Source: a virus
Reading direction: 5' to 3' (one strand)
Length of the DNA stretch: 48,879 nucleotides
IMG/VR virus record: IMGVR_UViG_3300029319_007059
Span: 1 to 48,879 of that record
Shown here: in pieces, positions 13,838-35,698 of the stretch
How positions within the stretch are numbered: the first letter of the stretch is position 1
Layout: each line of letters begins with the position of its first letter
Position numbers and translations under genes: made by a program
Notes under the pieces: generated by a model
Told to the model about the DNA's origin: nothing
The model's input: the letters and a program-made list of their open reading frames with translations, nothing else
Databases searched by the model: none

Positions 13838-16800
13838 TTAATAGCCGCCGCCACCGCCGCCGGATCCTCCTCCAGTACCGCCGCCACCTCTAGGAGGCTG
13901 CCCTGGCATTGAACTTGGTGCAAAGCCTTGCTGTTGTGGCTCTCTAGCTTTAGACATTTCTTCTGCACGGCGACGCTCCATCTGGGCAGGAGTCATATTT
14001 CTAAACTGTTCTGGTATATCCTCTTGTCGCATTTTACTCATATCAAATTGCTCTGGAGACATTGGTCGCTCCCCTGCGTTTGGATCTTGTTGCGGGAATT
14101 GTTGCCCTTCTGGTGGTGGTTCCATGCCCTCTGGTATCACGAGCGGTGGTAACCCCTCTGGTGTTCCCTCCCCCTGTTGAGCAAGAGCGTTCTGCGCTCC
14201 TGGGGGTAGTCCCCTAAATCCTTCAGGTGGTGGAGGGGCGTCACCAACACCCACTGGTGGTGATACGGTCGGAGCATTGATTCTCACTTGTTCCATTTGT
14301 TGGTTTTCAAGAATCTTTTTATTTCTTGCTCCACGGCTTCGAGCGTTTGTTTCCTGTTCCTCTGAGATATCCTCAACTTCTCTTTCTAGTTCTGGCCTAA
14401 ACCCAACGTTGACAGATATTTTTCCTAATTCCACAAGGGAACAATAGTCATATGGCCAGTTATATGTATTTCCAGCGACCCCCAAATCATCGCTAACATA
14501 TAGCCCCTTAGTGTATTCTGTTTTTTTCCGGCGCAAGAAATCTTTTTGTTCGTCTGGTAAGTTATCTGCTATCACGCCAAAGATGTTGTCATAAGAGAAA
14601 GACCCAGGTCCTCCGTTTAGCTCCTCAGACATAAATCTGAAAAAGGTGTCAACCCCACGCTCTTTAACTTTGAACACCATCCATTTAATCTCTGGTATGA
14701 ATCCATCCTTAGATCCTACTGGGGCGATGTCGATTAGGTCTACCCTTGGGTGACCGCTTCTTGGAATACCCAACTCAAGCTCTTTAAGGATTAATTCTGG
14801 AAATATTGTTTTGTTACCAACGCCAGAAGCCCTGTCGCCCGGCATGTAGTGGTCAATCGCAGAAACGCTTGTTTTCATTGTAGCACCAATGTCGGGCATA
14901 ATACCTTGCCACATATCCGCCAAATCCTGTCTGGAGAGCGCCACTGTGTGTTCAAGCAGATAGACTACGGGTATGTTAACATCTTCGTCTGTTGGCAAGA
15001 TAGAGTCGTATTCATCGCCACCGAATGGATTAATAAAAGAAGATACCTTTGGATAGTTCGGAGGCAACAAGGATGTCAGTTGTTTTTTGAGAGATGGCGG
15101 CAAAGAGTATTTTGTAAAATTCTTTCTAAACTCTTTGACTTTTGGTCCCAAAGCAGACATATTGCCTTTCAAGGTTACAACCTTCATTTCCTGGCTTGTT
15201 GGCTCTAAATAAAATGGCATTGCTAGCACGGCCTCAGAAATTGTCTTTTCACCGCTTTCCGCTAATTGTCCAAGTCTTCTTGCTTTTTCTGGCTGGAAAG
15301 TGCCGGGAGACTGTATGTCGTCTTCTTTAAATCCAACTAGCCTAGCCAAGGAATCCACTTCACGATTAGAATCTATAACAAACTTAGGAACTTTCTTGAC
15401 AACTTGAACTTTTGCCGTTCCAGACAAAACAGTGCCGGTCGATTCGTTAGTTCTCTGAGCGCCAGATCCTGTTGGATTCCCAAGAAGTCTTAACTCTGTT
15501 GAGTCTACTGAAACGTCCGAAATATACATAAACACACCCTCAGCAGATGAAGAGGGCATTACTCCATATTGATGCCACATACCTCTGACTTTTGGATCAT
15601 GTTCTCCAACATTAACAGAGGAACTAAAAGCATAATCGTTATCTGCTGTTGGGAAGTCCAAGATAGGACACTCCCACTTAGGCATAATCACCCACTTATT
15701 TTGATCTCTTGGTGATACGTCTGCTGCATCTGTGGGATAAACATTGTCAATAACAAGAGATGCATCCAAATCTTGTCTATTTTGCCAGGCTCTATTGAAG
15801 CCGTAAGCAGGAACGCCATCGAGACTTAACACCTGATCGTTGGCCCCCATAAAAGATCCGGAGTCAAAATCATAATAGTATCCATTTTCGTTATTATATT
15901 CAACAAATAAATCTTCGCCGCTTAAAATCTCTCTTAGAGTGACCTCTCCTGACTTCCTGGGCACATAGGTAATTCGAACAACGCTCGGTCCATAAAAATA
16001 TGTGGGCGTATACGGGGCAAACTCTGCTCGGTGATATGGCCACTCTTGCCCCTGAGGCAGTCCGCCGCTTTGGTCAGTTGTTGCAACAGTAAACAGTGGT
16101 GCCAATAAACCTCCAGCAAATGGACCTTCAACCGTAACGCCCGCACTGGGTTGGTCTGGCTGGACGGCGCTGCCAACAATCTCGGCTCCATTAAAGCGAT
16201 TAGTGAACAACCTTTGTGTCATTGTCACTTCGCCTGTTGACCCATTCGCAGCCGAATCAGTCTTTAAGTCTCCATTAGTGTCAGCTAAGTTCAATGCGTT
16301 GAATATGGCCCCGCCAACAGAAACAGCATCACCTACACCTTGGCAACCTATGACATATTCAGTAGCACTACTTCTTGCTGGGCTACTAACCGCAACACTC
16401 TTGTCAAACAGGAAAGTAACTTCGGCTGTTTCGCCAGATTCATTAGACCCAGTTATTCCAATAAATTTGCCATCAAGAATATTTTCATCAAAGTTGTTTA
16501 TTTCCATACTGGCTGTGGCCTGAGCGCCATATTTCACTGAATTGGGGGATTCTGCGTTTGGTCCAGCGGCTAGCATCTCGTTCCAGTCAAACGATCCAGT
16601 CGCTGTCGCTGGTCCAAAAGCTGCCGGGTTACTATACATCATGTGTCTATCAGTCTGCTTCATACCGATTTCCATAATATAGGCCTTGTCCTTCGAGACA
16701 CTGACGGTTCTTGCTTCATTTTGTTGGGCAGCAGCGGCACCAGCGGGGTTATCTGCCGGGGCTCTAGATGGTATCTCTGCCACAAACTTAGACATAAATC

Positions 16801-19800
16801 CGCCATCTTTTTGTTTTTTCAAAAAGAACCTTGGTATGTTAGCCATAAAGTTTGACATACCTAAACGATACAAATCATCATCAAATTTCTGGAATATTGT
16901 TGATGTTACTATTCCCATAAATCCTTCTTCGTAACTTTGAACAAGGGCACCAGTTGTGGGGACAGAGGCTGTTATCTCTTGATATAGGACTGGGTTTGTG
17001 TCAGATAATACAATGCCTCGCTTGTCGGTTGAGATGTGCTCCATCGGCTTGAAAATACCCTCGAAAGGAATCACATCAGAATAAAACATTCTATGAGGGG
17101 CACCTCGGCTGCCATCTTTTAATTGGTCGCCATCAACTCCTGCATCTAACTTAAAGAAATCAAAATTATCAGCGGCACCTTCTTTTCTTCTTCTTCGACC
17201 GCCAGGAATTGTAATGGCAGTCTCAGATGATCCAGAGATACCAATGTCTCCTGAGGCTAACGAAAAGAATATTGATGCGCTAAGTTGTCCATGTGTAGGA
17301 TCTTGGACCGAAGCGGATTGAATTGACCCCATACCCTTTCGCATAATTGGATATTGCACCCCAACACCCGCTTTAATAGAGTTATAAACAATCCCTGGAG
17401 CAAAGAATGGGCGGGATAACGTTCTAAATGCTCGGGGCTGTTTATCGTTATTTTCAGTGGGCGATGGTGGCTCAAGAGTTTTAAAGTTTGGTGCCCCATT
17501 TGTATAACCCTCTCCGCTGTATTCAACGGCGTGACCATATGATTGTGAAAAGAGCCTAGCCAATTCCAGGGTTCTTAACACTGGATAAAATCCTTCATAT
17601 GGCAACAGTTTTAGTAATGCCTCTGACTTAATCTCAAGGTGCCTTGGGTCTTTGTTGAATTCTTGATCCTTTGAACCAAGCTTCATAAAGCTCTTTAGAT
17701 ATTCTGCTGCGTCAGTTGTAGCGTATCTTGGCAAGAACTCTCTATCTGCACTATTAAATGCTCCTCGGGTGCCAGTGTCATTTGTGGCCCCCGTTACACT
17801 TAGAGCACCAGATACGACGGTCCCAAAGCTACCCAACTCTTTATAGGTAGGCATAAGCTCGCTAATGCGATACTCAGGAATAATTGTATAATCTTTACCT
17901 AAGTTTCTAAGTTCTTGGTGCCAATCATCGTAATTATTATACCACGGAAATCTAGCCGGTGCAAGAGTATTCTTCTTGGGACCATCTACAAACTTTCTTC
18001 TTCTAGCAGCAGTCCAAGCCGGTCTAGTAACTGGTCCTGCTACTGCGTTAGCTTCGGCCACAAATTTAGCTGTCCTACTCGATATATCCGTCGTTCGTAC
18101 TTTTTCTGTTGGGACGGTATAAATGTATTGCGGCGAGTTTATGCTTGAAGTATTAAATCGAATGCCGCCTAGTTCCGAACTGCTGTTAGCTGCATTACCA
18201 CTCATAACAATGCCATAGTGAGGCATCATTAGTTCCCCAGCCGGCATTGTTGATGCCATACAGAAAAGAAGATTTGTACCAAGGTTTGTTCCGCTATAAG
18301 TTGAGGAAGGAAGAACACCAGAAAATTCTGCGTAGTAAAAAGAGTCTAAGGGCCACTTTGAGCCAGTACCAAAATTTCTACTACCATCGCTACCAATATA
18401 AGGAGTAACCTTTAGCGGCGGGGTCCAGCCTGCATTCCCAGAGGCATTACCTTGGAAAATTGCAACTGGAAATTGCTCGTCCATCCTTACAAAGTAATCA
18501 AAAGACGATGAGTAACCTCGACCAAGAGTTTCGTCAGTAACCCTTCTTTCCCAGGTATTGTTGAACTTTGATATATTATCGTTATGAAGAAGCCCTGAAA
18601 GTTCTGTTATGTTTGTTTGAAGGAGTTCTTGCAATGAGCCTGTTGTTTTATCAGACCGCCAAAAGCTGTTTTCATAGAAGTTTCTCGCCCGAGTAGCAGA
18701 AAGATACGTGTATATTTCTTTTGGATAAATTGTTTCTTTATAGCTCATTAGTTTGATAAGCTCAACTCCATCGACAGATGGGTCAACGCCGTCAACAAAA
18801 GTATCCCTAATAATTTCGTAAGGTCTTTTATGAAACCCAAGCTTAAAGTCTTGTTTGTTTCCTAAATCTATATTCAGACCCCTGTTGGCAAACCCTTGTA
18901 GCTCGTTTCCATAAGAATATTTAACACTTACGTCAACTGATTTTTTCTCAGTTAATGCTGCTGTACCTCTTTTTGTCTTTATTTGATGTATGATTGGCTT
19001 GTACCTAGACGTCACTGGTGGCTCTTTGTATCGCTTGGCAATGTGATGTATAAGTATGTTACCACCACCACCAGAATAGACCTGCAAGGCGTTGTCTGAA
19101 TCTGTTACTGTTGATTTTTGAAAGTCTTTAAATGTTTCCATCTTTTCTGTAGCAACTAACTTTTTACCCGTTTGCTGATCGACAGATTCTGCTTTTTTCG
19201 TTATATGCGTAGCATCGATTAAGTAAAAGTTCTGCTTGGCATTAAACTTTCCTTTGCCGGTATATTGCCCAAACCTTGTCTGGGTCCAGGGTGCCCATAG
19301 TCCTGCTCCGTTTCTTTCCCAGATATATGTGAACCCTCCAGCCGAATTACTGAAGATGCCCTTTGCTTGTGCAGCAAAAGCGTTTGGATACAACTTATAC
19401 TTTTCTGAATGAGCAATTGACGAAGTGTATAAAGTTATATCGGACGGGAATCTAGATGCAGATAGGATAAAATTGTGAAAGTTATCTCCAACATTCTGCT
19501 CAGGATAATCGCCAAGATCTTGTTGCGAATGAGACAGGGCCATAAACCAAGCGTATCTATCGCCAGCGGGTATTGGCCTTGTAACGAAAGCATTGTCTCT
19601 AACCGTACCAGTTGTCATAATTGGCACTAACGGAGATTGAAGATTGCCGGAAACTAATTCTATTCTTAGTGTTCCGTTTCTTTGTGTCTTGTGGACAGCA
19701 ACCAAAGATGCAGTAAGCACAGACAATGGATCACCATGGACAGCAGGCAATCCACCAGAAGGTATAATTATACCCTCATTAAAAGCGCCCAGGTCTATGG

Positions 19801-22800
19801 AGTCATATCTGTCTAGTAACGTTACCAAAGATGAAGTCTGAAAACCACCAAAACCAGTGTGTCTTCTCAGTAAGGTATTGTATCGCTGTCTAACTTTTAT
19901 ATTTCTAAACGGCAGCGCATTGTTTGGAGAAAATTGATCAGATGTTCTATCTCTAAATAACTGTTTGGAATCTTCTTTACTACCAGGCGCAGAGAATCTA
20001 TCAGCTATAATTGTATTGTTTGTTCTAACTCCCGATCTTTGCCTTGGTGCTGTAAATTCAGCGGACCCAGTTAATCCCTGGTTTCTCCTTGGTACATCGG
20101 TCAAAAACGCCGATGGCATCGTGCCGCTCTGTAATGATAAGGAAGAAGTATGATAAGCATCGGGATTAAAAGCAAGATCCATATTAGTGGCCGCACGATT
20201 TGAGGTATTTACCACTTCGTAAAACTTAGAGAAATTGCCCAAGACTCTAGCACCACCCTCTGGAGCTATATCCGTTGTAAGTGTTTGTATGTTTGCCACG
20301 TTTACAGGTCTAGACGCTCCCGTACCTCGTTTATATTGCCCTTTCGGAGTCTTTGCTGCTGGTTTATCAAACTCACCGGCACCATCTGCAATCTCTAACT
20401 GATAAGATTCTTTTCGAACATTATCGGATTGATTAAGTTTGGCACCCACAGGTGCTGATCTGGCTTGTTGTCCGCCGACGTGAGCATTGCTAAATGGTGT
20501 CTGCATAGCAACAGGTCGAACATGAAGGTTTGCCATGTCAACATTTGTTAATCCGGCGTCCTGTAGTTGCTTTTGATAACCAGAGGTAACAGTTGAACTT
20601 ACCGGAGTAAATGGTAGCACAATTTGCCCTTGAAGATCTTTCCCATCCACGGAGGCACTTAGCTGTCGTTGAGATTTTTGATTTGGTATGATAACATCTT
20701 TATTATCTTGGTCAAGTTGAAGACCACCAAACTTAACGTTTGCGTTTCCTACCTCGGATTTCTTTTCTTTTGTGTTGCCAATACCTTGATTAGTTGGTTG
20801 ATTTTCTTCTGGCAAAAATGCTGATATCCCTACTAATCTATTAGGAGCATAATAAGATTGTGCCTGTCTGAAAATTGCCTCTCTAGTCGCCATAACGCCA
20901 GGGTTGGATTGTGAAATCGTAACCGTATGTCTTTCGGCCCTTGTCATCCACCAAAAGGCATTTTGATTTTCGGGGGGCGGGGATTGAGGCAGCGGTGCCC
21001 TTAATTTTGGGTAGGCTATAGAAAATGGAGTACCAAATCTATTTTCAACTCTAATGTTCTTTGGCCTTGTGACAACTTGAGGCGGAACTACAGGAGCACC
21101 AGCTTGAGGTGTATTTTGTCGGGCTGGGGTTTGATTATTATCAGGTGTTTGACCAGGCGCTTCATTGTTACTAATAACATTAGCTTCATTTCCGCCAACC
21201 CTGGATTGACGGAAAGATTTTTTCCTGTTCCCCATAAATGTATATTTGAATTTTGCTCTTTCAAGAAGATGACTCTCAACTATATTTCTAACGCCAGGAG
21301 CAACTTTTGCTGAAGCCGGAAATAATTGTTCTAACATCTCGCCAATAGACGAATCGAGCCACTTATAATAATCGAGATATTTTTGCAAGTCAGGAATATT
21401 ACCAACTTTAGAAAAGAATATTTGCCTAAGTTTTTCCATAGACTTATAGTTTGGTCTATACCTATTAACAGGGTCTCCAATTAAGTTATTTAATTCTTCT
21501 ACAGACGCAAACAAATGTAGCATTCTTTCGGAAATGCTTCGATACATGCTTTTTTCTATAGCATAGTAAAAAGTTTCTGGCCTTAGCATTGGCGCATAAG
21601 CTGCCTCGTCCAAGTTTTTAATCTTTACCATGTCACTACTAACAGCGTATTCCGGTAACTCTAGCCTATCTGTGTATATAAGCTCTTTTCTAATTGGTGT
21701 TGAAGACGCTGGGAAAAAATCTCCACGCCCTGTGTGCTGTCTTGAGTTTATGTGTTGCGGTGACTCGTGGAATAAATCACCACCACTTCCTGAATCCAGA
21801 GACCCTGACGAAAAATCATTAACGTTGAATCTTCCAGAAGCATCGCTTCCAGTTACATCAGCAAAGTCCCAATGCAAGGCAAGAGTATTAATTTGAGGGA
21901 CATAAACACCAGGGTTTTTACTCTGGAATGTGTAAGCTTGTCTTGTTGGGTTAAGGGTACCATAACTATCAACACTTCTGGCGTGCATATCTATTGCACC
22001 AGTAGGTAAAACGTCTGTCCAATACCTAAGACTTGATGCACGAACATCACTAGAGGTTAAAACTGTTCCAGTAAAGTTTGTTCTGTGTGCGCCAACATAA
22101 TATCTTTTTGCAGCAGAAACAATATCAGACCCAGACTTATAAGTTAGAGACCCTGTTTTGTAATAACTCTCTTGCCTAAGTCCTGAATCATAGTTAACAG
22201 CATAAAAATCTATATCATACCCATCATGAACATTTGCATTTGCTCCAGAATTTTGTGCAAACGGAAATCTTTTTGGGTGGACAGACAACGCAATATTCCA
22301 CTTCTGATTATCGTACACATTTCTAAACACAGGCGATACTATTAGTTCGTTGTTATGTCTGTCTAAGACCTTAAACAAAACATCTTTAACTTTGTAATCT
22401 GGCGAAATAACTTCGGCCATCTGGGACGCTGATTTGATAGCGACAACTTGCAACCCAGAGTCCGCATTAGGATAGTGCCAACTTGTGTCCGTGGAAGAGG
22501 ACAATAACTTGTGCTCACCTCGTGGCGTGTGCCAACCAAACAAAGATGACGTGACAACATGCATTGGCGTGTGCGAAAGTGTATCAACCTCTTTTTTGTT
22601 TGGGAATACAAACTCACACTCAGCAGTAAAACCAAACTCTATTAAGCTAAGGCTTCCACTACTGCCACTTATTACACCATATGATTCTGGAAGATCTGAA
22701 TTAGGGTATTGATAAACTGAGGCGTCAGAGGAGTCTCTGTCTATTAGCCCTGTAAAATCAGCAAACTTTTTATTGCTGGTGTCTGCTCTATAGTTGTTGT

Positions 22801-24679
22801 CAAGTTTGTATGTTGAGTTATCAGAATATATGTTTACTTTTAATATTTCTTCATCAATACCAAAGCACCTGACTAAATTTCTAATAGCCTTTTCATTTCC
22901 TTTTGATTTAAGGACATGGTTTAGGTTGTTGTAGATATTTTTGTATATCGTGTTCTTTATTGAAGACAAGTCGTGTTGAAAATTCAAGCTGCCATCTCGC
23001 TTTAGAAACTGTGAAAGCAGGTCCGCATTTTGAAAAAGTTCGGGCGCTTCAATACCCAACTCCTCAACTAAACGATCATTATGTGGAAACTCAAATATAC
23101 TACCAGTAGCGCTACCACTAATATAATCCATAGATTTAATACTTGTTAGGTAAGAAATCTGGGAAAATACAGTATCAAAATATGTTGATATTATTTGAGT
23201 GGAGTTTCTAAGTTCAGACCCAAACTGTGAATCCTCTTCAACCACCCAATCTGGGAACGTGTTTAAGATAAACGATGAGTTTGTTCTATCGTGCTGTTCG
23301 CCTATTAATTTTAGTTCGTCCCGACGAACAGTCAAGGCGGAAGCCGAGGGTATAACTATTGGATCTTCTGGTTCTGTTCTAGCTGCTACCGATTGAGTTA
23401 AGGCCTGCAATGTGATTGCAGAGCCCGTATCCCTAGCACCGGCAACATATCCAGTCCACGTCCCGTTTGATAACCTGCCAGAATAGTCAAGAACTACATT
23501 GTCAACACTACTGGTTCCAAAAACACCCTCGTTAAACTTATAATAGACTCCAAGTCCAACATTGGCGTCCTCAGTGTTTGTTCCGCCATTAACGTGGGTG
23601 AACCAGTTTCTTCCTATATCTTCACCTGTTCTCGCTGTTTTCCAAAATCTAAATTCGTCTATGGAGCCTGAGAGTTTGCCTCGACCCTCCATTGAATTAG
23701 CGTCAGAGACACCAGATGGAGCAACACGAAGGGCACCGATATTACCTATCAGACTTCCAGTCACAAGGCTAATTTGCCCCGCTTGATGACCGTCGGGAGC
23801 AATGCCGGTTTCGTGACAAACGCCATTAATATAAAAGTCGATTGTTGGAGAACTCTCAGACGTATTAAACACAAACGCAAAGTGATTAAACCCACTACCT
23901 GTAATATACTTGCCCACACCCCCAGTGGTTGGTATAGATTGCGTTACATAGCCCTTGGTGCCTGATAACATTGTAACCAAGAACCTGTCTTCCAGACTTT
24001 TTGAAAGCTCAATTCTTAAATTACCATAACATCCATTGGTCTCGTCATCATCTACGGATCCTGTGGATACACCATTCCACAAATCAAATATAACTTGCCT
24101 TGGCGACTGGGCAGTTGATACAGTGCCACCGCCGGGTATATCTGATTTGGATAGAAAGAACTCAACCGTAGAGCCACTTGGTCCGCCGAATTCTAGATTA
24201 TTCTGCCTAAAGTTGGACGAAAATACAGTGCCTGAATGTGGTCCGCCCTTAATCTGTATATACTCAGTCTTTGGCGATGAAAAATAATGAGAACTATGAG
24301 ATACGGCCGTGCCGTAGTTAGTCCCAATGCTAACAAAGCCTGTTGACTTAGGATACCTTTCATTGAAGATATATTTTTCTAGAGGATTCAGATCATTATA
24401 AAACTTTTCTTTCTCAAAGGCAGACCCATCATAAGGATAATTTTGGAGAATATAATTGAAAGCGTTCTCATAATATTTTTCAGCAGAACCATACTTTGCG
24501 AACTCTTCTGGGTTTCCGTAATCCAGAGGAGCGGTAAATTCATTTTGTCTTCTTACGCTTTGGCTTAAGTGGTTAGCGGATTCCATACCTCCGCTCAAAG
24601 CGCCTACAGCACTACTTTTAAGGTACTTTCCTACAGATTTTCCTTGTCTGTTTTTTTCAAATAACTTTTTTATGCTCAT
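13838..24679 (-). CDS. giant virion protein, 3613 residues, LamG/concanavalin-like lectin domain and Gly/Pro-rich tail
   Basis: This single gene fills 22% of the window. Residues about 165-410 form a LamG/concanavalin A-like sandwich (TVEFFLSKSD, NHFAFVFNTS, DFYINGVCHE, GSIDEFRFWKTART, GVYYKFNEG), a fold that binds glycans or proteins. A second possible LamG-like region lies near residues 690-880 (FGFTAECEFVFP, WNIALSVHPKR, YYVGAHRTNFTG). Residues about 1200-1500 include Asn/Gln/Pro-rich linkers. The last 175 residues are Pro/Gln/Met-rich and end in a glycine run. No membrane segment or protease motif is evident. The start overlaps the upstream stop (ATGA). It probably belongs to the baseplate periphery or long fibres and may contact host surface sugars. 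The lectin domain call is good; the rest is unassigned. Confidence 0.8.
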   Translation of the reverse strand: MSIKKLFEKNRQGKSVGKYLKSSAVGALSGGMESANHLSQSVRRQNEFTAPLDYGNPEEFAKYGSAEKYYENAFNYILQNYPYDGSAFEKEKFYNDLNPLEKYIFNERYPKSTGFVSIGTNYGTAVSHSSHYFSSPKTEYIQIKGGPHSGTVFSSNFRQNNLEFGGPSGSTVEFFLSKSDIPGGGTVSTAQSPRQVIFDLWNGVSTGSVDDDETNGCYGNLRIELSKSLEDRFLVTMLSGTKGYVTQSIPTTGGVGKYITGSGFNHFAFVFNTSESSPTIDFYINGVCHETGIAPDGHQAGQISLVTGSLIGNIGALRVAPSGVSDANSMEGRGKLSGSIDEFRFWKTARTGEDIGRNWFTHVNGGTNTEDANVGLGVYYKFNEGVFGTSSVDNVVLDYSGRLSNGTWTGYVAGARDTGSAITLQALTQSVAARTEPEDPIVIPSASALTVRRDELKLIGEQHDRTNSSFILNTFPDWVVEEDSQFGSELRNSTQIISTYFDTVFSQISYLTSIKSMDYISGSATGSIFEFPHNDRLVEELGIEAPELFQNADLLSQFLKRDGSLNFQHDLSSIKNTIYKNIYNNLNHVLKSKGNEKAIRNLVRCFGIDEEILKVNIYSDNSTYKLDNNYRADTSNKKFADFTGLIDRDSSDASVYQYPNSDLPESYGVISGSSGSLSLIEFGFTAECEFVFPNKKEVDTLSHTPMHVVTSSLFGWHTPRGEHKLLSSSTDTSWHYPNADSGLQVVAIKSASQMAEVISPDYKVKDVLFKVLDRHNNELIVSPVFRNVYDNQKWNIALSVHPKRFPFAQNSGANANVHDGYDIDFYAVNYDSGLRQESYYKTGSLTYKSGSDIVSAAKRYYVGAHRTNFTGTVLTSSDVRASSLRYWTDVLPTGAIDMHARSVDSYGTLNPTRQAYTFQSKNPGVYVPQINTLALHWDFADVTGSDASGRFNVNDFSSGSLDSGSGGDLFHESPQHINSRQHTGRGDFFPASSTPIRKELIYTDRLELPEYAVSSDMVKIKNLDEAAYAPMLRPETFYYAIEKSMYRSISERMLHLFASVEELNNLIGDPVNRYRPNYKSMEKLRQIFFSKVGNIPDLQKYLDYYKWLDSSIGEMLEQLFPASAKVAPGVRNIVESHLLERAKFKYTFMGNRKKSFRQSRVGGNEANVISNNEAPGQTPDNNQTPARQNTPQAGAPVVPPQVVTRPKNIRVENRFGTPFSIAYPKLRAPLPQSPPPENQNAFWWMTRAERHTVTISQSNPGVMATREAIFRQAQSYYAPNRLVGISAFLPEENQPTNQGIGNTKEKKSEVGNANVKFGGLQLDQDNKDVIIPNQKSQRQLSASVDGKDLQGQIVLPFTPVSSTVTSGYQKQLQDAGLTNVDMANLHVRPVAMQTPFSNAHVGGQQARSAPVGAKLNQSDNVRKESYQLEIADGAGEFDKPAAKTPKGQYKRGTGASRPVNVANIQTLTTDIAPEGGARVLGNFSKFYEVVNTSNRAATNMDLAFNPDAYHTSSLSLQSGTMPSAFLTDVPRRNQGLTGSAEFTAPRQRSGVRTNNTIIADRFSAPGSKEDSKQLFRDRTSDQFSPNNALPFRNIKVRQRYNTLLRRHTGFGGFQTSSLVTLLDRYDSIDLGAFNEGIIIPSGGLPAVHGDPLSVLTASLVAVHKTQRNGTLRIELVSGNLQSPLVPIMTTGTVRDNAFVTRPIPAGDRYAWFMALSHSQQDLGDYPEQNVGDNFHNFILSASRFPSDITLYTSSIAHSEKYKLYPNAFAAQAKGIFSNSAGGFTYIWERNGAGLWAPWTQTRFGQYTGKGKFNAKQNFYLIDATHITKKAESVDQQTGKKLVATEKMETFKDFQKSTVTDSDNALQVYSGGGGNILIHHIAKRYKEPPVTSRYKPIIHQIKTKRGTAALTEKKSVDVSVKYSYGNELQGFANRGLNIDLGNKQDFKLGFHKRPYEIIRDTFVDGVDPSVDGVELIKLMSYKETIYPKEIYTYLSATRARNFYENSFWRSDKTTGSLQELLQTNITELSGLLHNDNISKFNNTWERRVTDETLGRGYSSSFDYFVRMDEQFPVAIFQGNASGNAGWTPPLKVTPYIGSDGSRNFGTGSKWPLDSFYYAEFSGVLPSSTYSGTNLGTNLLFCMASTMPAGELMMPHYGIVMSGNAANSSSELGGIRFNTSSINSPQYIYTVPTEKVRTTDISSRTAKFVAEANAVAGPVTRPAWTAARRRKFVDGPKKNTLAPARFPWYNNYDDWHQELRNLGKDYTIIPEYRISELMPTYKELGSFGTVVSGALSVTGATNDTGTRGAFNSADREFLPRYATTDAAEYLKSFMKLGSKDQEFNKDPRHLEIKSEALLKLLPYEGFYPVLRTLELARLFSQSYGHAVEYSGEGYTNGAPNFKTLEPPSPTENNDKQPRAFRTLSRPFFAPGIVYNSIKAGVGVQYPIMRKGMGSIQSASVQDPTHGQLSASIFFSLASGDIGISGSSETAITIPGGRRRRKEGAADNFDFFKLDAGVDGDQLKDGSRGAPHRMFYSDVIPFEGIFKPMEHISTDKRGIVLSDTNPVLYQEITASVPTTGALVQSYEEGFMGIVTSTIFQKFDDDLYRLGMSNFMANIPRFFLKKQKDGGFMSKFVAEIPSRAPADNPAGAAAAQQNEARTVSVSKDKAYIMEIGMKQTDRHMMYSNPAAFGPATATGSFDWNEMLAAGPNAESPNSVKYGAQATASMEINNFDENILDGKFIGITGSNESGETAEVTFLFDKSVAVSSPARSSATEYVIGCQGVGDAVSVGGAIFNALNLADTNGDLKTDSAANGSTGEVTMTQRLFTNRFNGAEIVGSAVQPDQPSAGVTVEGPFAGGLLAPLFTVATTDQSGGLPQGQEWPYHRAEFAPYTPTYFYGPSVVRITYVPRKSGEVTLREILSGEDLFVEYNNENGYYYDFDSGSFMGANDQVLSLDGVPAYGFNRAWQNRQDLDASLVIDNVYPTDAADVSPRDQNKWVIMPKWECPILDFPTADNDYAFSSSVNVGEHDPKVRGMWHQYGVMPSSSAEGVFMYISDVSVDSTELRLLGNPTGSGAQRTNESTGTVLSGTAKVQVVKKVPKFVIDSNREVDSLARLVGFKEDDIQSPGTFQPEKARRLGQLAESGEKTISEAVLAMPFYLEPTSQEMKVVTLKGNMSALGPKVKEFRKNFTKYSLPPSLKKQLTSLLPPNYPKVSSFINPFGGDEYDSILPTDEDVNIPVVYLLEHTVALSRQDLADMWQGIMPDIGATMKTSVSAIDHYMPGDRASGVGNKTIFPELILKELELGIPRSGHPRVDLIDIAPVGSKDGFIPEIKWMVFKVKERGVDTFFRFMSEELNGGPGSFSYDNIFGVIADNLPDEQKDFLRRKKTEYTKGLYVSDDLGVAGNTYNWPYDYCSLVELGKISVNVGFRPELEREVEDISEEQETNARSRGARNKKILENQQMEQVRINAPTVSPPVGVGDAPPPPEGFRGLPPGAQNALAQQGEGTPEGLPPLVIPEGMEPPPEGQQFPQQDPNAGERPMSPEQFDMSKMRQEDIPEQFRNMTPAQMERRRAEEMSKAREPQQQGFAPSSMPGQPPRGGGGTGGGSGGGGGGY

Positions 24680-26184
24680 ACGGGTTCTTCATCAAGCTTA
24701 AATTTAAATATTTCAGGCTGCTCTACATACTTTCCATTTAAAAGATACACGAACTGCAACCCATAAGCAAACCCCTCATCAAGCATGGTGGTATCAAGTT
24801 CAAAATAGTTTCCGCTAATGTCGTAGGACATTCTTGTATGATTATATGTTCCTGTGCCGTATGGGACAATCTCTAAGTTATCAACAACTCTATATAATCT
24901 CCAGTACGCATCCTCTATTATTTCTGTTGGCGGTTCAGAGGAAGCGACACTATACACGTTAGGGCTCCAATTTTTCTCTCTGGCATAAACTCTAAGGACA
25001 GGTTTTTGTCCCTTAACGTAAGATTTTTTAAGGTTTGTAATATCGGTAATGTGTTGAGTTTCATATTGAGCAAAACTTGCAGTCAGCCCCTCTAAGTTGA
25101 TTGAGCCTGTAAAATATTCAATGCTACCGGAGTGCCACACATCGTGAACGGTAGTCAAAGAGCTAGTAATAGCAAAAGAACAACTATATATTCCCGTCTT
25201 AGCCATACCGCCCTCAACAACTATTCCGCCTGTTATCTCTTGTTGAACAAGTCCGTCCGTATCAAGAACATGAAGTCGATGGCCGGTTGGCAGATTATCG
25301 TTGCTTCCACTATAAAAACTAACGTATATTATCTGGTCAGTGCCAACTAGGCTAGGTATGTCTCTCAATTGTCCCCTTATCCTGTTATAGAGGTACACAG
25401 TGTTGAGATTATCCGACGGTGGGGCCAGGGCACTGGAAATCAGAGTAACCCCTCTTTGGTCCTTTCTAGAGGAGTCCCACCTGGCTTCGATATACGGTCT
25501 TTTCAGAAAATAATCGCTTGTTCTTCCAAAAAACTTCTTTGTAAAAAATGAACCAGATGAACCAGATATTATGTCGTCATCGTGTTTTATCATAAATCCG
25601 AAATTAGAAGCTGTCCCAACACCATCTGCTCGCCACAAATCTACTGCAAAAGTAACATCAACATCCAAATCTTCAGCACCACCAGAGAGGTAAAAGCTTG
25701 ACGAATAAGCAGTGTCTCCGCTACTTGCACTATTGTAAAAGTCTCCACCTTCGTGCTCCCAAGCTATCAAGTTCGAACTAGATATCCAGTTACAGACTCC
25801 AAAATCTGTATACTCGTTCATATCCAGTCCCCTGCCTTCGGTCCAAAAATTACCACTAACAACAGCAACCTTTAATGGGTACTCATAGGGCAGACTATCA
25901 GCATGAGGAGCATTAAACATCTTTAGTCTATACTCCACACTCGAAGATGGAATAACCCCATCATTAATGTCAGAAACTATTGAATCTATTGGAAACTGTA
26001 TAAGTATTCTTGCCTGTTCAGCATTTGTGGCATCTATAGATGCGGTGGTTTGCCCATGAATCACAAAAGCCTCTAAAATATCGGACGCCCCCATATTAGA
26101 GCCTGTCCCTCTTGTACGAAGGTTAGCTTCGAAAGCATTTGTAATTGTGTTATCCTGCGTAGCAAAATATCTCTTAATGGCCAT
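24676..26184 (-). CDS. conserved phage virion-type protein, 502 residues
   Basis: The protein begins MAIKRYFATQDNTITNAFEA, then LRTRGTGSNMGASDILEAF. I recognise this N-terminal pattern from structural proteins of large phages, encoded beside gp6-like wedge genes. The rest is Ser/Gly/Tyr-rich and beta-like. A segment near residues 90-185 (EYPLKVAVVSGNFWTEGRGLD, then a W/D-rich stretch) looks like a jelly-roll region of the DNRLRE type, tentatively. Both ends are coupled: TAATG with the gp6-like gene upstream and ATGA with the giant gene downstream. It is likely a baseplate component connecting wedge and fibre network; the exact role is unknown. Confidence 0.75.
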   Translation of the reverse strand: MAIKRYFATQDNTITNAFEANLRTRGTGSNMGASDILEAFVIHGQTTASIDATNAEQARILIQFPIDSIVSDINDGVIPSSSVEYRLKMFNAPHADSLPYEYPLKVAVVSGNFWTEGRGLDMNEYTDFGVCNWISSSNLIAWEHEGGDFYNSASSGDTAYSSSFYLSGGAEDLDVDVTFAVDLWRADGVGTASNFGFMIKHDDDIISGSSGSFFTKKFFGRTSDYFLKRPYIEARWDSSRKDQRGVTLISSALAPPSDNLNTVYLYNRIRGQLRDIPSLVGTDQIIYVSFYSGSNDNLPTGHRLHVLDTDGLVQQEITGGIVVEGGMAKTGIYSCSFAITSSLTTVHDVWHSGSIEYFTGSINLEGLTASFAQYETQHITDITNLKKSYVKGQKPVLRVYAREKNWSPNVYSVASSEPPTEIIEDAYWRLYRVVDNLEIVPYGTGTYNHTRMSYDISGNYFELDTTMLDEGFAYGLQFVYLLNGKYVEQPEIFKFKLDEEPV

Positions 26185-27977
26185 TACTTAATAACTCCCG
26201 TTACATCGTCTCGTGGTGACAAAACATCTGCAACTGCGTCTGGCGGTATTATTAAAAATCTTCCATCATCAGACATATTTTTATCAATTTCATAAGCAAA
26301 TGAACTGTATGACCCGCCTGTTTTATTAACTAGCTTGACCATAGTTGTATCTACAACCCCTGGGACTGCGTTCAGGTGCTTGAAGATTTCAGATATGTAT
26401 ATTGGCTCGCCCATCTCTTTGGTTACGTTTAAAACTTTATTGGTTATTTTTTCAACACAAGCATTCAAGACATCAAAGCGATTTACTCCAGTCTCTGCGA
26501 TTACCTCAAATTGTATTCCATAGTTTATAATTTTACCATCCAAGATATCAACACTATCATTTATCATTCGATACCTATCGATCCAAGTTTTTAAGTTTGT
26601 TTTCAATTGACTTGGTGGTAATTGCAATCTGCCGTCTGACCCTTGGGCCAAAACATATAAATTTAAATTTCTATTAGCTGATCTTGGGTCTTGTATTATG
26701 TTAACACGTTGAACTCTGCCAAATCCGCCTGGCATTCTATAGCAAACGCTGATATAATCTTCTTTGGTTACGGCTCTGTTTTGTGAAGCATAAGTGCTAT
26801 ACGCTCTAATTTTTATCTCTTCCGCCGTTAGCTCCTCGGTATCCCCAAGTATTGGCTCAGGATTCTCAACCTCTATGGAAGCCTCAACCGCAGCCAATAG
26901 TGGCGGAGATAAGATATCTCGATTATCAAACGTAAGAGAGGAGTCTAAAATCTGCGTAACAGTTGAAGCTGCTGCGTTTATTGTTGAACCCTCATTCGAT
27001 CTGTATGTTATGGTCAAAGTCGTGTCCTCTGGGGCCACACCAAATTTATCAGTCTTAATTAAGTTACTAGGATCAAAAGTAGAGTCCGATATATATTCTC
27101 TACCTGTCACATCCAAAACAACATCTGCTGGGCTAGCTAACAGGTCGCCAGTTAAATTATCAGAAGAACCATAACCAAACTGTAGAAATGTATTACCTTC
27201 GGTATCAAACTCTGTCACAAACCTGCGTGGACAAGGTTTTGTTTTCATTATAAATGGAACAGAATCTCTGTTGGTTCCCCTATTCGGCTCTTTAGACAAC
27301 ACAATATCCTGCGTAAGGTAATCAACTTGAAAATACTCATTTCCTTGTGAATCTACCACTGACACAATCTCTGAGACTTCATCTGCCGACATTTGTAATC
27401 TAAGGAATCTTTGATAACTCCCTACTTCTATTTCCTCTTCTCTCAGCCTTCCTGACACTACCTGTCCAGTTCCTTTAATTGCAAACTCTGTTGGGACACC
27501 AGTATCAGGATTGACTTTTGCCACGGTTATTTCATTGTTACTATCAGTAAAATCAATGTCTTGACTCACCGTATATACTGCACCGCCGCTGCCGCCAACA
27601 AGTGTACCTCTTTTAAGAATTGGTATATAATTTGTATCCGGACCACCAGTTGTTGCCGCAGCAGGGATTAAAACATAAAAGTTACAAATCCCAGTAGCAG
27701 TTGCGGACCCTGGTAATTTATATCCAAGTTGTTTGGCCAGTCTTTGAACATTTGGAAGTTCAATAGCAGTATCTAAGAAGCTTTCGTTTGCTTGATAATC
27801 AGTGTAAAACGATAGTTGATCACCAACGTAAGCTACCAGATCTAACATCAATGCGCCAAAAGACGCCTCATTAAAATCCTGAAACGTATTCGCATAATAA
27901 CGTTTTGCATAGTTCACAAGAGATTCTTTGATTGTTTCAAATTCTCTGTTTGTGTAATTTATTGGACGTTTTGGCAT
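26184..27977 (-). CDS. gp6: baseplate wedge protein, gp6 / baseplate J family
   Basis: The 597-residue protein begins PKRPINYTNREFETIKESL, followed by DFNEASFGALMLDLVAYVGDQLSFYTDYQANESFLDTA. This is the conserved N-terminal signature of T4 gp6-like wedge proteins. The middle and C-terminal parts (AYSTYASQNRAVTKEDYISVCYRMPGG and following) match the baseplate_J core. In contractile phages gp6 forms the inner wedge ring around the hub and binds gp25. The length is near T4 gp6 (660). It lies directly after the gp25-like gene, the usual order, and is coupled to the next gene. Confident family call. Confidence 0.92.
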   Translation of the reverse strand: MPKRPINYTNREFETIKESLVNYAKRYYANTFQDFNEASFGALMLDLVAYVGDQLSFYTDYQANESFLDTAIELPNVQRLAKQLGYKLPGSATATGICNFYVLIPAAATTGGPDTNYIPILKRGTLVGGSGGAVYTVSQDIDFTDSNNEITVAKVNPDTGVPTEFAIKGTGQVVSGRLREEEIEVGSYQRFLRLQMSADEVSEIVSVVDSQGNEYFQVDYLTQDIVLSKEPNRGTNRDSVPFIMKTKPCPRRFVTEFDTEGNTFLQFGYGSSDNLTGDLLASPADVVLDVTGREYISDSTFDPSNLIKTDKFGVAPEDTTLTITYRSNEGSTINAAASTVTQILDSSLTFDNRDILSPPLLAAVEASIEVENPEPILGDTEELTAEEIKIRAYSTYASQNRAVTKEDYISVCYRMPGGFGRVQRVNIIQDPRSANRNLNLYVLAQGSDGRLQLPPSQLKTNLKTWIDRYRMINDSVDILDGKIINYGIQFEVIAETGVNRFDVLNACVEKITNKVLNVTKEMGEPIYISEIFKHLNAVPGVVDTTMVKLVNKTGGSYSSFAYEIDKNMSDDGRFLIIPPDAVADVLSPRDDVTGVIK

Positions 27978-28001: not shown

Positions 28002-28406
28002 TTAGTTCTGATTCTGAGTTATTATCAAGGTATCGCTATCATTAATTGACCCTACGTTATACCTTATAACTAGCCGGACTGCATTGGGGGATAGACTCTC
28101 GTCTTCCTCCGGAGTTAAAAGTAACAATTCTTCTATTTCAACAAAAGGCATGAATTTACTAATTTGCGTTGAGATACGTTGTCTTAAAGCTGAATATGTT
28201 TCAGCGGTTGCAGGCTCAAACAATAAGCGTCGGACTCCTGCGCCAAAGTCTGGTATCATAACTCTTTCGCCAGGGGATGTCAATACTAAATTTTTTAAAT
28301 TTTGCTTAACAACATCTTTCAATGTCTTGTTTAACCTAAAAGGCCCGTCGGTGTTATCATAAGTTAGGGGTAACGAAACTGATATACCTTCTAGTTTATT
28401 TGCCAT
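28002..28406 (-). CDS. gp25: baseplate wedge protein, gp25/GpW family
   Basis: The 134-residue protein contains DVVKQNLKNLVLTSPGERVM, then PDFGAGVRRLLFEP, the hallmark of the gp25/GPW baseplate family. The EPR-type loop is represented by FEP. The family nucleates the inner baseplate and initiates the tail sheath. Length fits T4 gp25 (132). It abuts the LysM protein's stop without a gap and precedes gp6 by 24 nt, as in many contractile tail systems. Confident. Confidence 0.93.
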   Translation of the reverse strand: MANKLEGISVSLPLTYDNTDGPFRLNKTLKDVVKQNLKNLVLTSPGERVMIPDFGAGVRRLLFEPATAETYSALRQRISTQISKFMPFVEIEELLLLTPEEDESLSPNAVRLVIRYNVGSINDSDTLIITQNQN

Positions 28407-31400
28407 CTAGTCCCCCTCCAGTTCAGCTATAAAATTTGCCATCTCTGTAATTATGCTCTCGACTCGATTTCTTTGATCGTTATTCCAGGCATCTATACCT
28501 AAATCTCTAAACAAGGATGATTCATCAAGTTCGGCGACTTTCTTAGTAATATTTGCTAAAATACCTATTACCGTATTACCTCTAGCAGCCCTAGTGCGAA
28601 CAGTACCGCTATTGTAACTAAAAAGTCTATCTATTTTTCTAAACGGCGGCGCTCCTGACGGTAGGTTGTTAGCTCCTATCTCTCCATCAAATCCAACAAA
28701 ATGATTAAACGCACGAATAATGGCACCATAAAAAGCTGTTTCTTCCATAGGATCTTTAAGTCCGGCAGTTTCAGAAATCATACCGTCTTCTATAAGATTT
28801 TCAAGATAGCCAAGTTTTTGATTACCAAAGGCCTGCCTTTTACTAAACGGAGGTGACCTGTGATAGTTTCTAGATAAGGTAAAATCGGCCTGGGTAATAG
28901 AATCTTTACCTCCCACCTTCAAGTCAATTTCTGAGTTATAAGCTCGCTCTTCTATCACTCGGACGCCTTCCGACCCATACGGAGAAATTCCCAACGAAGA
29001 TAAATTATTTATAGTAGAAACAATTCGTTTAATTTTACCACGGTATGCTTGATCATCTCCTGCCTGTAAAAAATCCTGATATCCATCTCTTTTACCAAAA
29101 ACATTTCTGCCTGTTGTCTTGTAAAGGTGTTCCGATCGTGCAACCTCATTTGCAAAGTAGCCAAGTCTCCTTTCAAGGGCTATCTTCTGGGCACGAATAG
29201 CGTTACAAGCCTCCAAAAGCGCTTGGTATCTTGCTTGGTCTCTTGTTAAATCTCGCCTATTATTGTAAGTTCTACCCCCGAACTCAACCGGGAATGGGTT
29301 TGGTGTGCGCTCCTCCTCTGGTACTACTTGGAATCCGCCGGCAATCAGACCAACTTGTCGTTCTTGTTCTTGTTGTCGTTCTGCCATTTCTTCTGCGTCA
29401 GGACCTCTGAAGAAGTTTAATAGCTGCTCTCTTCTGGCTTCCGCTTTTTGATCGTCTTCTATTAGTTCGTTCAATGTTTTTGGTTGCCTCAAGTCTGATT
29501 GTATTAAGTTTGCGGTAAAACTCGCAGCAGGATCAAGAATTGATTTTAACCCTTCGTCAGCGGTTTGCACTCTCTTTTTGGCATAAAAAGCCATTGTTGG
29601 CAATTTATCAGTGATCGCAACAACCTTATCGTAAAAAATATACTGCAACCCAACTAATAAAGGTATCGGGACCGCAGCTAGAAACTGTTCGTTTTTAAAT
29701 GTTTCAAAACTATCTGAAAAACCAAGACCACTTAGCCCGCCTGGTTCTGCTAGGTAACCTTCTTCACCTTCGGGCCCGAACCCAGAAAAACTTAAATTAC
29801 TGTTTCCAAATGTTCCAAAAGTATTGCCTGTATGCATATATCTAATCAACATTTCATAAGCTGATTTTCGATCTAGGGCGGGTCGGCCTTCTATGTTTCT
29901 TATAACGTCCTGATCTTCGATCTCTTCAAACAAGTTCATATTCAACCGACCCCATCCTCTAAAATCGTCATCTTCAGTATCAGCTTCAGATGACATATTA
30001 TAAAGTGTCTTTCTCAACATCTGTTGAATAACGTATCTTACTTGTGCTTCGGGGTCAGAAATTAATGCAGGATTAAAAACTATTCCAGATTCATCGATAT
30101 CGGTTCTTGAACAAGTCCTAACAACAAATTCCATGCCTTGTATTAAATAACCAAAAATGTTTTGCTCTCGAAAGTCTGCAATAACTTTATTTGAAATATA
30201 CGCTGTAATCATTTTGAGTGTGTCTGGCGTTTCGACTGAGTAACCATTATTAAAAAGAGGTGCTACATTTAAAGCAAAATTAAATAGTCTTTGCTGAATA
30301 GCGTTGATAGTCGCTACGGCCTTCTGCTCATCAGGTCCATAATTGCAGGGATCCCCATTTGGAAGAAAGCCTGGTATGGCTGCTTGTTTAATCGTGTCAT
30401 CAACTCGGTTTTTCACTCTTTCATTTGCATACAAATTATAGCTAACGGTCCTAGTAACGTTGTATAAAGAATTAAGATATGGATACATTATTCCACGAAC
30501 AGCCACACCATCCACTGTGTTGTTTTGAGGAGTAAAACCAGAGAAAACACTACTGGCGACCGCATCAGCAACTGTCCTTGTTCCAGTGCCACCTTTACTG
30601 TCCTTGTTTCCAATTGTTTTTCCATACCCAATATGCATTAAGTTACTATGATTTCTGTTAATTGTGTTTGAATGATTTTGGCGCACTTGCTGCGATCCTT
30701 TTAATATGTCCGACGCCTGATCTAAATGGTAGCTAATTTTATATTTGTTGGCGTTAGCTCCGTTTCCGGCTTCCGGGTCGTCGAGGGGCGAAACGGGTTC
30801 CTCTAATTTAAATTCGCAAATTAGTTGAGGAGGGAAGGATCGATATCCTATACGAGCTTCCTCTCCAGCGCCGATAACCGCTCTTTCACTCTTGTTGAAA
30901 TAAACCCTAACGGTACCGGCTGGCTCATTGTCACGAGGAATGTAATCCAACTGAAGGCGTCCGAACGATTTATCATTTGGCGGACTAGCATTACGTCCTA
31001 ATCCAGTATTCTCAAAACCCATATCATAATGTGGATGATTGCCAGGTATACCCGCTACTGGACTAATACTATACTTAATTGAAGTTGGTGGAACATATTG
31101 ACTAGTTCTAGCTCGCCTTACCTCTCGCTGACCGTCGCTAATTGCTGCATAGTTATCACCAAAATAGCGTTCATAGAATTTATATATCTGTGTTAATTGC
31201 ATTTTATTGTCTGCGCCAGCAGCCGTAAGAGAAGCTTGGTCGATCTCTTGTTCAGCTAAAGATCTCAATGCTTGCGTGGTTGAAGTAGCTTGAATGCCTT
31301 GTGCATCTCTTGAAGCCTTTCCAAGGAGAGCTAGCAAATCTAAAAACCATTGTGCAAGTCCAAGATTGTCCCAAAAATTGCTTATTTCCAGTCCAAAATC

Positions 31401-34400
31401 AAAGTCTTTAGCGGCCATTTCACATAAAAGACCTATCTTAAGGGAATTTTGTTCTATTCTTTGTCCAATTTGTGATCTTAATTGTCTTTTTGTTAGTCCG
31501 CCGGCAACTATTGCATCATCTTCTGCATCTGTTAGTTCTTCTAATCCGATGTCCAGCCCTGCACCCAGCCCGTAAGCTAATATATCTCGATCATCACAAT
31601 ATGCTTCTTTGGTGTCAAGGGGTTTTGCAATCCCTAATGAAATATCAGGACCAAGAAGTTGCCCCAACCGCTTAAAATATCTTACAATAAGATCTTTAGA
31701 AAAATTTAACGTGGCGTAGCGAACATCTCCTATGTATACAGATTCCTGAACACTGTTGAGCAAATGTCTTGTAAACTCGTCACTATAGCGATCTCCTGCT
31801 AAAATGGCTTGTTGGTCTGCGTTTGAAAGTTCATCTACCCTTAAAGTTCCTAAGTTTATTCCTCGATACAGGGAATCTATTAGGGCTTGTCCCCCAGATC
31901 CCTGAAGAACTGCCACAACATCTATGTCAACCATTAGGTCAGAACAATCATCGTTTAACTGCCTTAGTTGCTCAAGAGAAGGTGGCCTTTTCACAAGTCG
32001 AGACGCATTACCCCTGCCTTCACTAACGATAGTTGTGTCCTCAATACCTAGATCTCTAGCTACCTCTAGCAAATCAATATTTGCATAATCAACAAGTTCG
32101 TTAATTCTAACACGACCATAAGGCGAATGAACTCCCCTAACCTTGTTGTCTGTTAACCTACCCTTAGCAACAACAGTTTCTGGCCCGCAGCCGGAAACAG
32201 CTAGTAGCAATTGCTTGAAGGCTTGCAATATTAACTGTTTGACAAACTCAATTATTAGTTTGTATAACTGATCTCTCCATAATTTCCACAAATCAAAAGT
32301 AGGAGTTTTAGTAAGACTTATTCCACGAGGAGGCGTTAATCCTTGTTTTACCAAAGATTGAACTTCGGGTGGGACACCGCCCGGCTCCAAAACCTCCTTT
32401 GTTAAAACATCTCCAAGCACCCTAAAACAAGCGTAGAACTGCCTATTAATTTCTCTTTCAATATCACGACCTATTTGGTCTGGGTTGTCAACATATCCTG
32501 CACCCTGTAACAATAAGTTTTCATTCTTTTTAAGCTCAACAACTTCATCTCTAAGAATTTTTACAACAACACCAACAACTTGCTTAAAGCTTGACTTGCC
32601 ACCAAAAAGTTGATATACTAAAAAAGCATCATTAAGATATTTTGCAAGTGGTGTCTCGCACCCTGCGTTATTTAGAGTGCTTGTAAAGAAGCCGAGTGCC
32701 TGATTGCCGATTTGAAATCTTTTTTGAAACTGTCTTTGAACTTCTGCTTTGGTCTGAGCCTTAGCCTGTTTCTTGTTCTTTTTTGGACTTGCCTCAAAAG
32801 TGTTTTTACCTAGCGCAGTGCCAGATGGTTCTTGAGGATACTTGTTGTTGCTTTTTTTATTTTCTTCTTGCTTATTTTTTATATCCGTGGGCTTTATAAT
32901 TGGACTAGGATAAACATATTTTTGAACAAACTCAATGGGGGGCGGCAATTCACTATCACTAACTTCTGCCAATCCTGCAATTTCAACAGAGTGGAATAAA
33001 AAAGCGATACTTGTAGGGGGAACTTCTCTGAATATTAGAAAAGTGTAAATTGATGGTAAATCTTCTAGGGAAAATTGTTGCCCATTGTAAAATAATTCAA
33101 TTGGTTTATATTTTGCGTCACAAACAATTTCAACTTTTGCACTGTTGTCTATCTCTATCCCAAATTTCGCAAGATACTTTTCCAGTGTGGTAATTATTGA
33201 TGCTAATCGCTCCGCTTCTTCTGCAAGATTGACGCCATTCATCATTGATGGGGTTATATTTTCTTGCTCAAGCTTTCGATGATATAATTTTAAAACCCTC
33301 TGCGTGGCTCTAATATTTTCTTTCATTTCTCCAACTACCATTGGAGTTCGTCTTAGTCCGTTGTTGTCAGGCTCCCCCCTGTTTTCCAACAGCTTCTTGG
33401 CTCTTTGTAACACAGTCGGACTTTCATCCTGTGTAGACTTACCACCAACCTTACTAAGTTTTTCAATCTCAGCTTCAGGTATTTTTACAGCCAGTGTCCA
33501 AAAACTTTGCCCCGCAGGCGCAGGTTGTGGCCTGTTTGGACTACCATAGAAACTAAGGAACTCGACTTTACTAGGGTCAATCGCTGCCCGATTTCTTGCA
33601 TTGTCTCTATCAGCAAATTTAAGGATCTCAGGAACAGCGAAATCAAACTTAAAGTTTGATATATTTTGAACTGCCTGGTTGCCACCAGCAATATCGAATG
33701 ACTTAGGGTTTTTAGCAAGAGTCCTAAAAACACACCAATAATTTTTTTGTTGAGGATTGTAGTAAACTTTTTTCAAAAGATTTTTATTTGCATAGGTGGC
33801 AACGTTTACTGATATCTCGTTTGTTACGCCCAGTTGTTCATTGCTTGTTCCCGCATCTGACGGAACATTGTTTGTCCAATCGTCAAGGTCCACCTCGGGG
33901 TCTACTTTTTTATTTTCCTCATCTAGCTCTTTTTTTACCACTGTCAATCCAGATGGTATTGTGTCCCCAGGCTGTCCAGCAGCCTGTAACAATTGTTTAA
34001 CCCTGTTGCTAGAATACGCAGGAACTAACTCCGGCAATCTTGAATTTGCCTCATTAAAAGGAAGTGTTACAATTTGACCTGGCTCGATAAGGTCTGGATT
34101 GGCTCTAAACTGAGCGTTTTCCTCCACTGCTAACAATTGCTCTAAAGTAATCCCATACCGTACAGCTATTTTAGATAGCCAGTCACCCTCTACAACCGTA
34201 TACTTTGCTTTGTTGTTTCTTGGTCCAGCCGGATCATTAACAGTCTTTTGGTTCTCTGGTCGTTGAGCCGCCTCTGTTGTCACTGTGTCAAGGGTTGAAT
34301 TTTGCATATTGATGGCATTTGTAATAACCGTCAACATATCTTGCTGTTCTTTTTTACCTACAAAAAACAAAGCCCATGTTTGGCCAGATAGTCTTGGGTT

Positions 34401-34774: not shown

Positions 34775-35698
34775 TTAGTTTGTATTATTAAATGTGCTAT
34801 TAATGTAGCCGGATCCGGGTACTTCAAGAAAATTTGTCTTATATCTAATAGCGTTCTTGCCGTAAGTTCCTAAATTAAATCCAAGGGTACCTAATTGAGA
34901 AAATTGTGAGATAGCGGTGACAGCAAAGTCCGGGGATGGACTAACTGGCGCACCGGGTGCAACAGCTATATGAGTATGAAGAGATAAAGCTATCAACATC
35001 TGACAATACAAAGTGTATAGTGTTGTTAAATTACCATTCACATCGCTTACCAAATCTGTCAACTCGCTTAGGGCGGCTGTAAGATTATCACCCTTTACCA
35101 GGGGCTGGAGGTCAGCATCATTGTTCCCAGCAATTAGGTCTATGCCTTCCTGTATATCTATTCTAACTCCCTGCCCATCATAAACATCAGTGCCTGTGAC
35201 CAGCTTTATACCGTCTCTTGCAATAAGCCTAACGGCATCGGCCTTAACTGCAACCGCAGACTTGTTTCTTGAACTACCTACATTTCCCTCTGGTAAAATA
35301 AAATTATCATCAACATCCGTTCTTTGACTTATATAAATTCTTGCCGAGTCAAGCTCAGGACTCTTGTCCGTATAAACGGACATATTTTCTTCGTTAACCT
35401 CTACACCAGTTGCTCCCCCGAGTCCAACAACTAAATCTATTGTTCCACACTGTGTGACTCCAATGCCACCGTATCCAGATTCTATATCTCTTGGCCTGTC
35501 TCTGCCCATCACAATATAAGAATTGTGTTTTCCTTGGTAGACAGTTTCTGCCTCAGTGTGATTAAAGTTTGGCACAGCCTCAACAACAGAGGTGTTGAAT
35601 AGTCCGCTGTTTTTTTCTTTGGCTCCGGGCTGATTCTTTAGCTTGTCTAGTTCAGATTGAGGAACCCCAACTGTACTCTGTCCTTCTTTTAGTGTCAT
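34775..35698 (-). CDS. putative central spike / baseplate hub accessory protein, 307 residues
   Basis: Residues about 115-215 consist of short beta repeats (ARIYISQRTDVDDNF, KADAVRLIARDGIKLVTG, GVRIDIQEGIDLIAG). They resemble the intertwined beta-helix of phage spikes, with regularly recurring V/I-R-I/L patterns. A helical stretch follows (LTAALSELTDLVSDVNGNL) with a LHTH segment. It is encoded directly after the M15 hub gene, with which it may form a split counterpart of T4 gp5. No PAAR motif was seen. The spike assignment is inference from pattern and neighbours. Confidence 0.55.
   Translation of the reverse strand: MTLKEGQSTVGVPQSELDKLKNQPGAKEKNSGLFNTSVVEAVPNFNHTEAETVYQGKHNSYIVMGRDRPRDIESGYGGIGVTQCGTIDLVVGLGGATGVEVNEENMSVYTDKSPELDSARIYISQRTDVDDNFILPEGNVGSSRNKSAVAVKADAVRLIARDGIKLVTGTDVYDGQGVRIDIQEGIDLIAGNNDADLQPLVKGDNLTAALSELTDLVSDVNGNLTTLYTLYCQMLIALSLHTHIAVAPGAPVSPSPDFAVTAISQFSQLGTLGFNLGTYGKNAIRYKTNFLEVPGSGYINSTFNNTN

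Follow-up and report, generated by a model that had tools for sequence, protein, structure and literature searches.

A 3613-residue protein with LamG-like folds in a marine viral fragment is probably a gp7-type baseplate wedge protein

How a single protein of 3613 residues fits into a phage particle is the question raised by the window analyzed here, a stretch of 48,879 nucleotides from a virus record of 49,438 bases. The open reading frame (13838..24679) lies on the minus strand, as do the baseplate genes and protein regions described below, and is uninterrupted between its ATG and its stop codon; the preliminary description, made from the letters of the sequence, had located it and given no strand. 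A frame of this length would arise by chance with a probability of about 10^-101 at the base composition of the window, and homologues span it from end to end, so the frame is real. Its start codon and the upstream gene's stop codon form a 4-base overlap.

Relatives of the giant protein were found at no fewer than 28 IMG/VR loci, with 33-84% identity and mostly end-to-end coverage. A second scan, with residues 100-660 as the query, retrieved at least 596 related stretches; its patterns were derived from LamG1, the first of two LamG-like regions, and those of the first scan lay outside it. Predicted viral proteins without known function in BFVD matched residues 1-1135 (E 1e-47 to 1e-58). When residues 1-2614 were compared with 50,697 phage records by tblastn, no match was obtained, and PHROGs and PDB sequence searches with the giant yielded none either; NCBIfam gave chance matches only for residues 1-1135, and the Capsid_N family (PF16903) gave no match, which is uninformative. 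A 1562-residue relative of the N-terminal part lies in a WOR-3 MAG “chromosome” (CP070664.1, 585771-593483). It was set aside as probably belonging to a phage contig joined in assembly, because it adjoins a run of N and a truncated homologue of the giant's 502-residue neighbor, without a gp6 or Gp23 match. The impression that this is one of the longest phage frames was a fair one, but the length is not exceptional, because T4-like cyanophages encode gp7 proteins of 3045-4458 residues at the corresponding locus; the longest relative seen (L200:1126-14103) has 4325 residues.

The giant lies in a baseplate gene neighborhood. On the minus strand, the order starts with a 517-residue protein carrying a C-terminal M15 (VanY-like) peptidase, a probable tail lysin (35699..37252; VanY E 1.2e-11, phrog_2649 endolysin E 5.7e-27), and continues with a 307-residue protein without family match, for which reading and position suggest the putative place of the central spike (34775..35698), and a 2119-residue LysM-domain protein, probably a tail protein from its position (28407..34766). 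The baseplate wedge proteins gp25 (28002..28406; GPW_gp25, E 8.5e-15) and gp6/J (26184..27977; Baseplate_J, phrog_219) come next, followed by a 502-residue protein (24676..26184), the giant and further genes. The 502-residue protein also stands beside the giant in relatives, and its Mel-JY01 homologue is CBM96-like. The LysM protein is nearly without matches among the phage records.

The gp6/J protein matches Microcystis phage Mel-JY01 (34% identity, full length), Flavobacterium phage immuto and an uncultured 484-kb phage (LR756508) over nearly its whole length. In these three phages, a protein of 370-430 residues comes next in the same operon, as beside the giant, and then, directly or one gene later, a giant homologue of 1265-1404 residues. 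In the window, the order after gp25-gp6 holds, but a gene for about 500 residues stands before the giant, as an extra gene does in Mel-JY01 and immuto. In S-PM2, S-RIM44, S-CAM3 and other T4-like cyanophages, the gene directly after gp6 encodes a giant annotated as “virion structural protein” or “baseplate wedge initiator”, with 3048 residues in S-PM2 (p084), 4067 and 4225 in Bellamy (gp111) and ACG-2014f, and 4458, the greatest length, in MED4-213. The gene for T4 gp7 (1032 residues) likewise comes after gp6. Among 16 checked records with relatives of the giant, nine carry a Gp23 capsid match (E 1e-58 to 1e-71), and the same nine have sheath matches; the record of the window, a 49-kb fragment, has neither. 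The best explanation for the source is a T4-related marine myovirus lineage without a cultured member in the searched collection.

We consider it probable that the giant is the gp7-type protein (“baseplate wedge initiator”, intermediate wedge) of this lineage. This reading rests on the gene order and on a helical wedge core with a K-S-K-G-x-E-K motif (residues 426-645; 22745..23404). The core (about 430-645) and the segment at about 1040-1150 are homologous to the proteins of Mel-JY01 (1336 residues), immuto (gp109, 1265 residues) and LR756508 (1404 residues), with E 2e-14 to 4e-16 for the core and E 2e-11 to 2e-5 for residues 1041-1150. The latter form the most conserved helical segment of the giant (21230..21559), with 56% mean pairwise identity, the measure of conservation used throughout. 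These three proteins have about one third of the giant's length, and LamG1 is undetectable in them.

The core was also related to the N-terminal module of cyanophage gp7 (hhalign E 9.7e-5), with the alignment lying on a K-G-T motif. The global alignment score of 32.4 was reached by none of 150 column permutations (maximum 9.8), and the local score by one of 150. The cyanophage module in turn matched T4 gp7 at residues 660-759 (E 1.3e-5). The cyanophage proteins resemble the giant in their place after gp25-gp6, their size and a homologous core with the KGT motif, but their core is N-terminal, whereas that of the giant comes after LamG1, and S-PM2, the sole cyanophage compared here, has no similarity to the C-terminal two thirds of the giant. 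Single-sequence comparison of the giant with T4 gp7 and P2 gpI gave weak links, with no significant direct match to T4 gp7. The best P2 gpI alignment falls on the KGT motif; its place and score together were reached in 0 of 150 shuffles, and its score alone in 19 of 150. P2 gpI sequences gathered from IMG/VR were near-identical and of no use as a profile.

The weak direct link to T4 gp7 and P2 gpI speaks against a gp7-type protein, as do three further observations. A gene for about 500 residues separates gp6 from the giant, unlike in T4 and the cyanophages; the core model is of moderate quality (pLDDT 63), with no PDB structure match above Z 2.9 and none to the P2 gpI fold; and residues 1341-3440 have no homology among the known phage proteins compared. 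A PDB profile search with the core also gave no meaningful match. The extra gene and the moderate core model without PDB match would also suit a separate tail protein, such as a fiber or baseplate decoration, that merely follows gp6 and leaves the 502-residue protein as the wedge partner. We regard this as unlikely, given the homology of the core to cyanophage gp7 at the KGT motif, with no permutation out of 150 reaching the global score, and given that Mel-JY01 and immuto have the same order with the core-bearing protein downstream.

For a gp7-type protein, a role in wedge assembly and a place in the virion would follow from homology, gene order and established knowledge of T4 gp7, and we infer both for the giant. 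The virion of S-CREM2 contains ORF122, a “baseplate wedge protein, intermediate”, detected with 91 unique peptides and encoded by a gene adjoining those of inner wedge proteins (PMC10665884). The proposal of a virion protein on the baseplate is well supported by synteny and by detection of the protein at the gp7 position in a virion, that of another phage. As a gp7-type wedge protein, the giant represents a familiar component whose form is unusual. This would give a place in the T4 baseplate scheme to a protein that otherwise lacks annotation and that hundreds of marine viral fragments carry.

The unusual form concerns first the LamG-like regions. LamG1 (residues 126-425; 23405..24304) follows an N-terminal part that is helical in the AlphaFold model (residues 1-125; 24305..24679; 43% identity among 71 non-redundant homologues). 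In the giant alone, hmmscan placed Laminin_G_3 at residues 256-355 (E 5e-4, 20.7-22.5 bits), below the Pfam cut-off of 27.6; a genome search that includes neighboring matches gave 28.5 bits (gathering cut-off 27.6). Laminin_G_3 was detected in 20 of 23 close homologues (E<=0.1) and in 61 of 69 wider ones (E<=0.01; best E 9e-13), and the alignment displays the motifs DEFRFWK and YYKFNEG...LDYSGR, so that the LamG-like region of the preliminary description holds in the family although it falls below the cut-off in the giant alone. A PDB profile search with LamG1 gave no meaningful match, and a LamG1 profile found none in eight phage genomes.

A second LamG had been suspected near residues 690-880. 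It is present and larger, at residues 646-998 (21686..22744; from about 634 in its widest extent). Segment-wise structure prediction, applied with AlphaFold to residues 1-1135, gave an overall pLDDT of 48, with LamG2 as the only confident part and LamG1 modeled with low confidence. The LamG2 beta-sandwich has pLDDT values mostly of 75-90 across residues 650-905, and its model matches pentraxins, the PAPP-A LamG domain and laminin LG domains with Z 11-15 and rmsd of about 2.6-4 A over 160-218 residues. It also matches phage tailspikes, namely CBA120 TSP2 (Z 12.9) and the Pan3 tailspike (Z 12.4). Structural support is therefore stronger for the second LamG than for the first. Both regions resemble Laminin_G_3 and pentraxin-like LamG domains, LamG1 in sequence and LamG2 in predicted fold, but differ from them in being built into what would be a baseplate wedge scaffold. 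The stretch at the place of LamG2 is longer in the Mel-JY01 and LR756508 proteins, but not in that of immuto. A further difference from the cyanophage proteins is that none of nine cyanophage and Methylophilales records checked has a Laminin_G_3 match inside the giant gene; a LamG-like fold match exists for a fragment of the ACG-2014f wedge initiator.

Two LamG folds could make the giant mainly a host-recognition adhesin, with LamG1 and LamG2 setting host range by binding, at the baseplate periphery, glycans of the host surface. The variable number of LamG domains would fit (five Laminin_G_3 matches in the 4325-residue relative, three in others), as would the LamG-like folds of the CBA120 TSP2 and Pan3 tailspikes. 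The conservation of LamG1 is harder to reconcile with it: mean pairwise identity among 71 non-redundant relatives was 48.7% in LamG1 against 45.4% in the core, unlike in typical receptor-binding tips, and first-scan relatives, whose patterns lay outside LamG1, showed the same trend (57.7% against 53.7%). Identity equal to or above that of the wedge core argues against a fast-changing host-range lectin, and this comparison of sequences favors a structural or conserved-ligand role for LamG1 over host-range recognition. LamG folds are, moreover, common protein-protein modules. We therefore give the adhesin a low probability, and glycan binding by the giant remains hypothetical.

A more specific proposal had been that the lectin may bind the glycan that a neighboring sugar-nucleotide cassette produces or imitates. 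Such a cassette is present at 38.9-48.8 kb of the window (39678-48824), with genes for epimerases, an aminotransferase, transketolase-like halves and glycosyltransferase-like proteins. Its presence in the same record would suit the proposal, as would the finding that 14 of 16 records have epimerase matches. Two large relatives, G004 (178 kb) and G007 (98 kb), keep LamG1 without an epimerase match, which leaves the link unsupported; these absences are weak evidence, because the records are fragments and may be incomplete. Considering also that LamG1 is conserved like the structural core, we judge the link to the cassette highly improbable.

The gp7-type reading suggests the following arrangement. 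Each of the six baseplate wedges would be nucleated by the core (residues 426-645 together with about 1041-1150) paired with gp6. With LamG1 following the N-terminal helices and preceding the core, whose two halves flank LamG2, both LamG regions could form built-in beta-sandwich modules at the wedge periphery, making mainly conserved structural contacts with proteins or with a common glycan. Any host-specific binding would be left to variable inserts, and the C-terminal two thirds may provide further baseplate modules on flexible linkers.

Two such linkers stand out by composition, as the preliminary description had noticed. In 40-residue windows, Asn, Gln and Pro together reach at least 35% only at residues 1149-1245 (20945..21235) and 3453-3568, against a mean of 16% for the giant. 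The middle region (residues 1341-2700; 16580..20659) has insertion hot spots near 1439, 1550, 1613 and 2200-2206. It is followed by an insert (residues 2705-2871; 16067..16567) that is wholly or largely absent from more distant relatives, residues 2701-2860 being alignable in only 6 of 120 homologue pairs. A conserved C-terminal module of no recognized family comes next (residues 2872-3440; 14360..16066; 52.5% identity over 2861-3440), and the Pro/Gly/Gln-rich tail (residues 3441-3613; 13841..14359) is not conserved.

At about 21 related loci, the equivalent of the giant is encoded by two adjacent genes; the distinct cases are nearer fifteen, because several of these loci are near-duplicates. 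In the numbering of the window protein, the breaks fall near 920, at 1150-1350, near 1610-1690, near 1713-1790 and near 2011-2240, and the commonest coincides with the linker at residues 1149-1245. At 17 split loci examined, the start codon of the second gene lies -4 to 40 bases from the first stop, and several have a ribosome-binding-like sequence. Sequencing errors were rejected as the cause of the splits, because of these nearby start codons and ribosome-binding-like sequences and because the places are repeated. Several linkers are thus places where giant gp7-type proteins can be fused or divided. The splits offer a natural dissection of a 3600-residue protein into separately expressible modules, with which one can ask if the lectin-like folds of a baseplate help in adsorption or in assembly.

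Insertions of 40-235 residues recur at the same places among relatives. We tentatively put forward that the wedge protein may be a modular display platform, in which lectin-like domains sit on a conserved core, while gene fission and fusion at linkers exchange, insert or detach everything else. If so, the baseplate could gain and lose binding modules with its assembly core unchanged. In one relative (L024:10001-20797), an in-frame stop at 14840-14842 divides an otherwise open frame into 1613 and 1985 residues, as either a natural split or a sequencing error.
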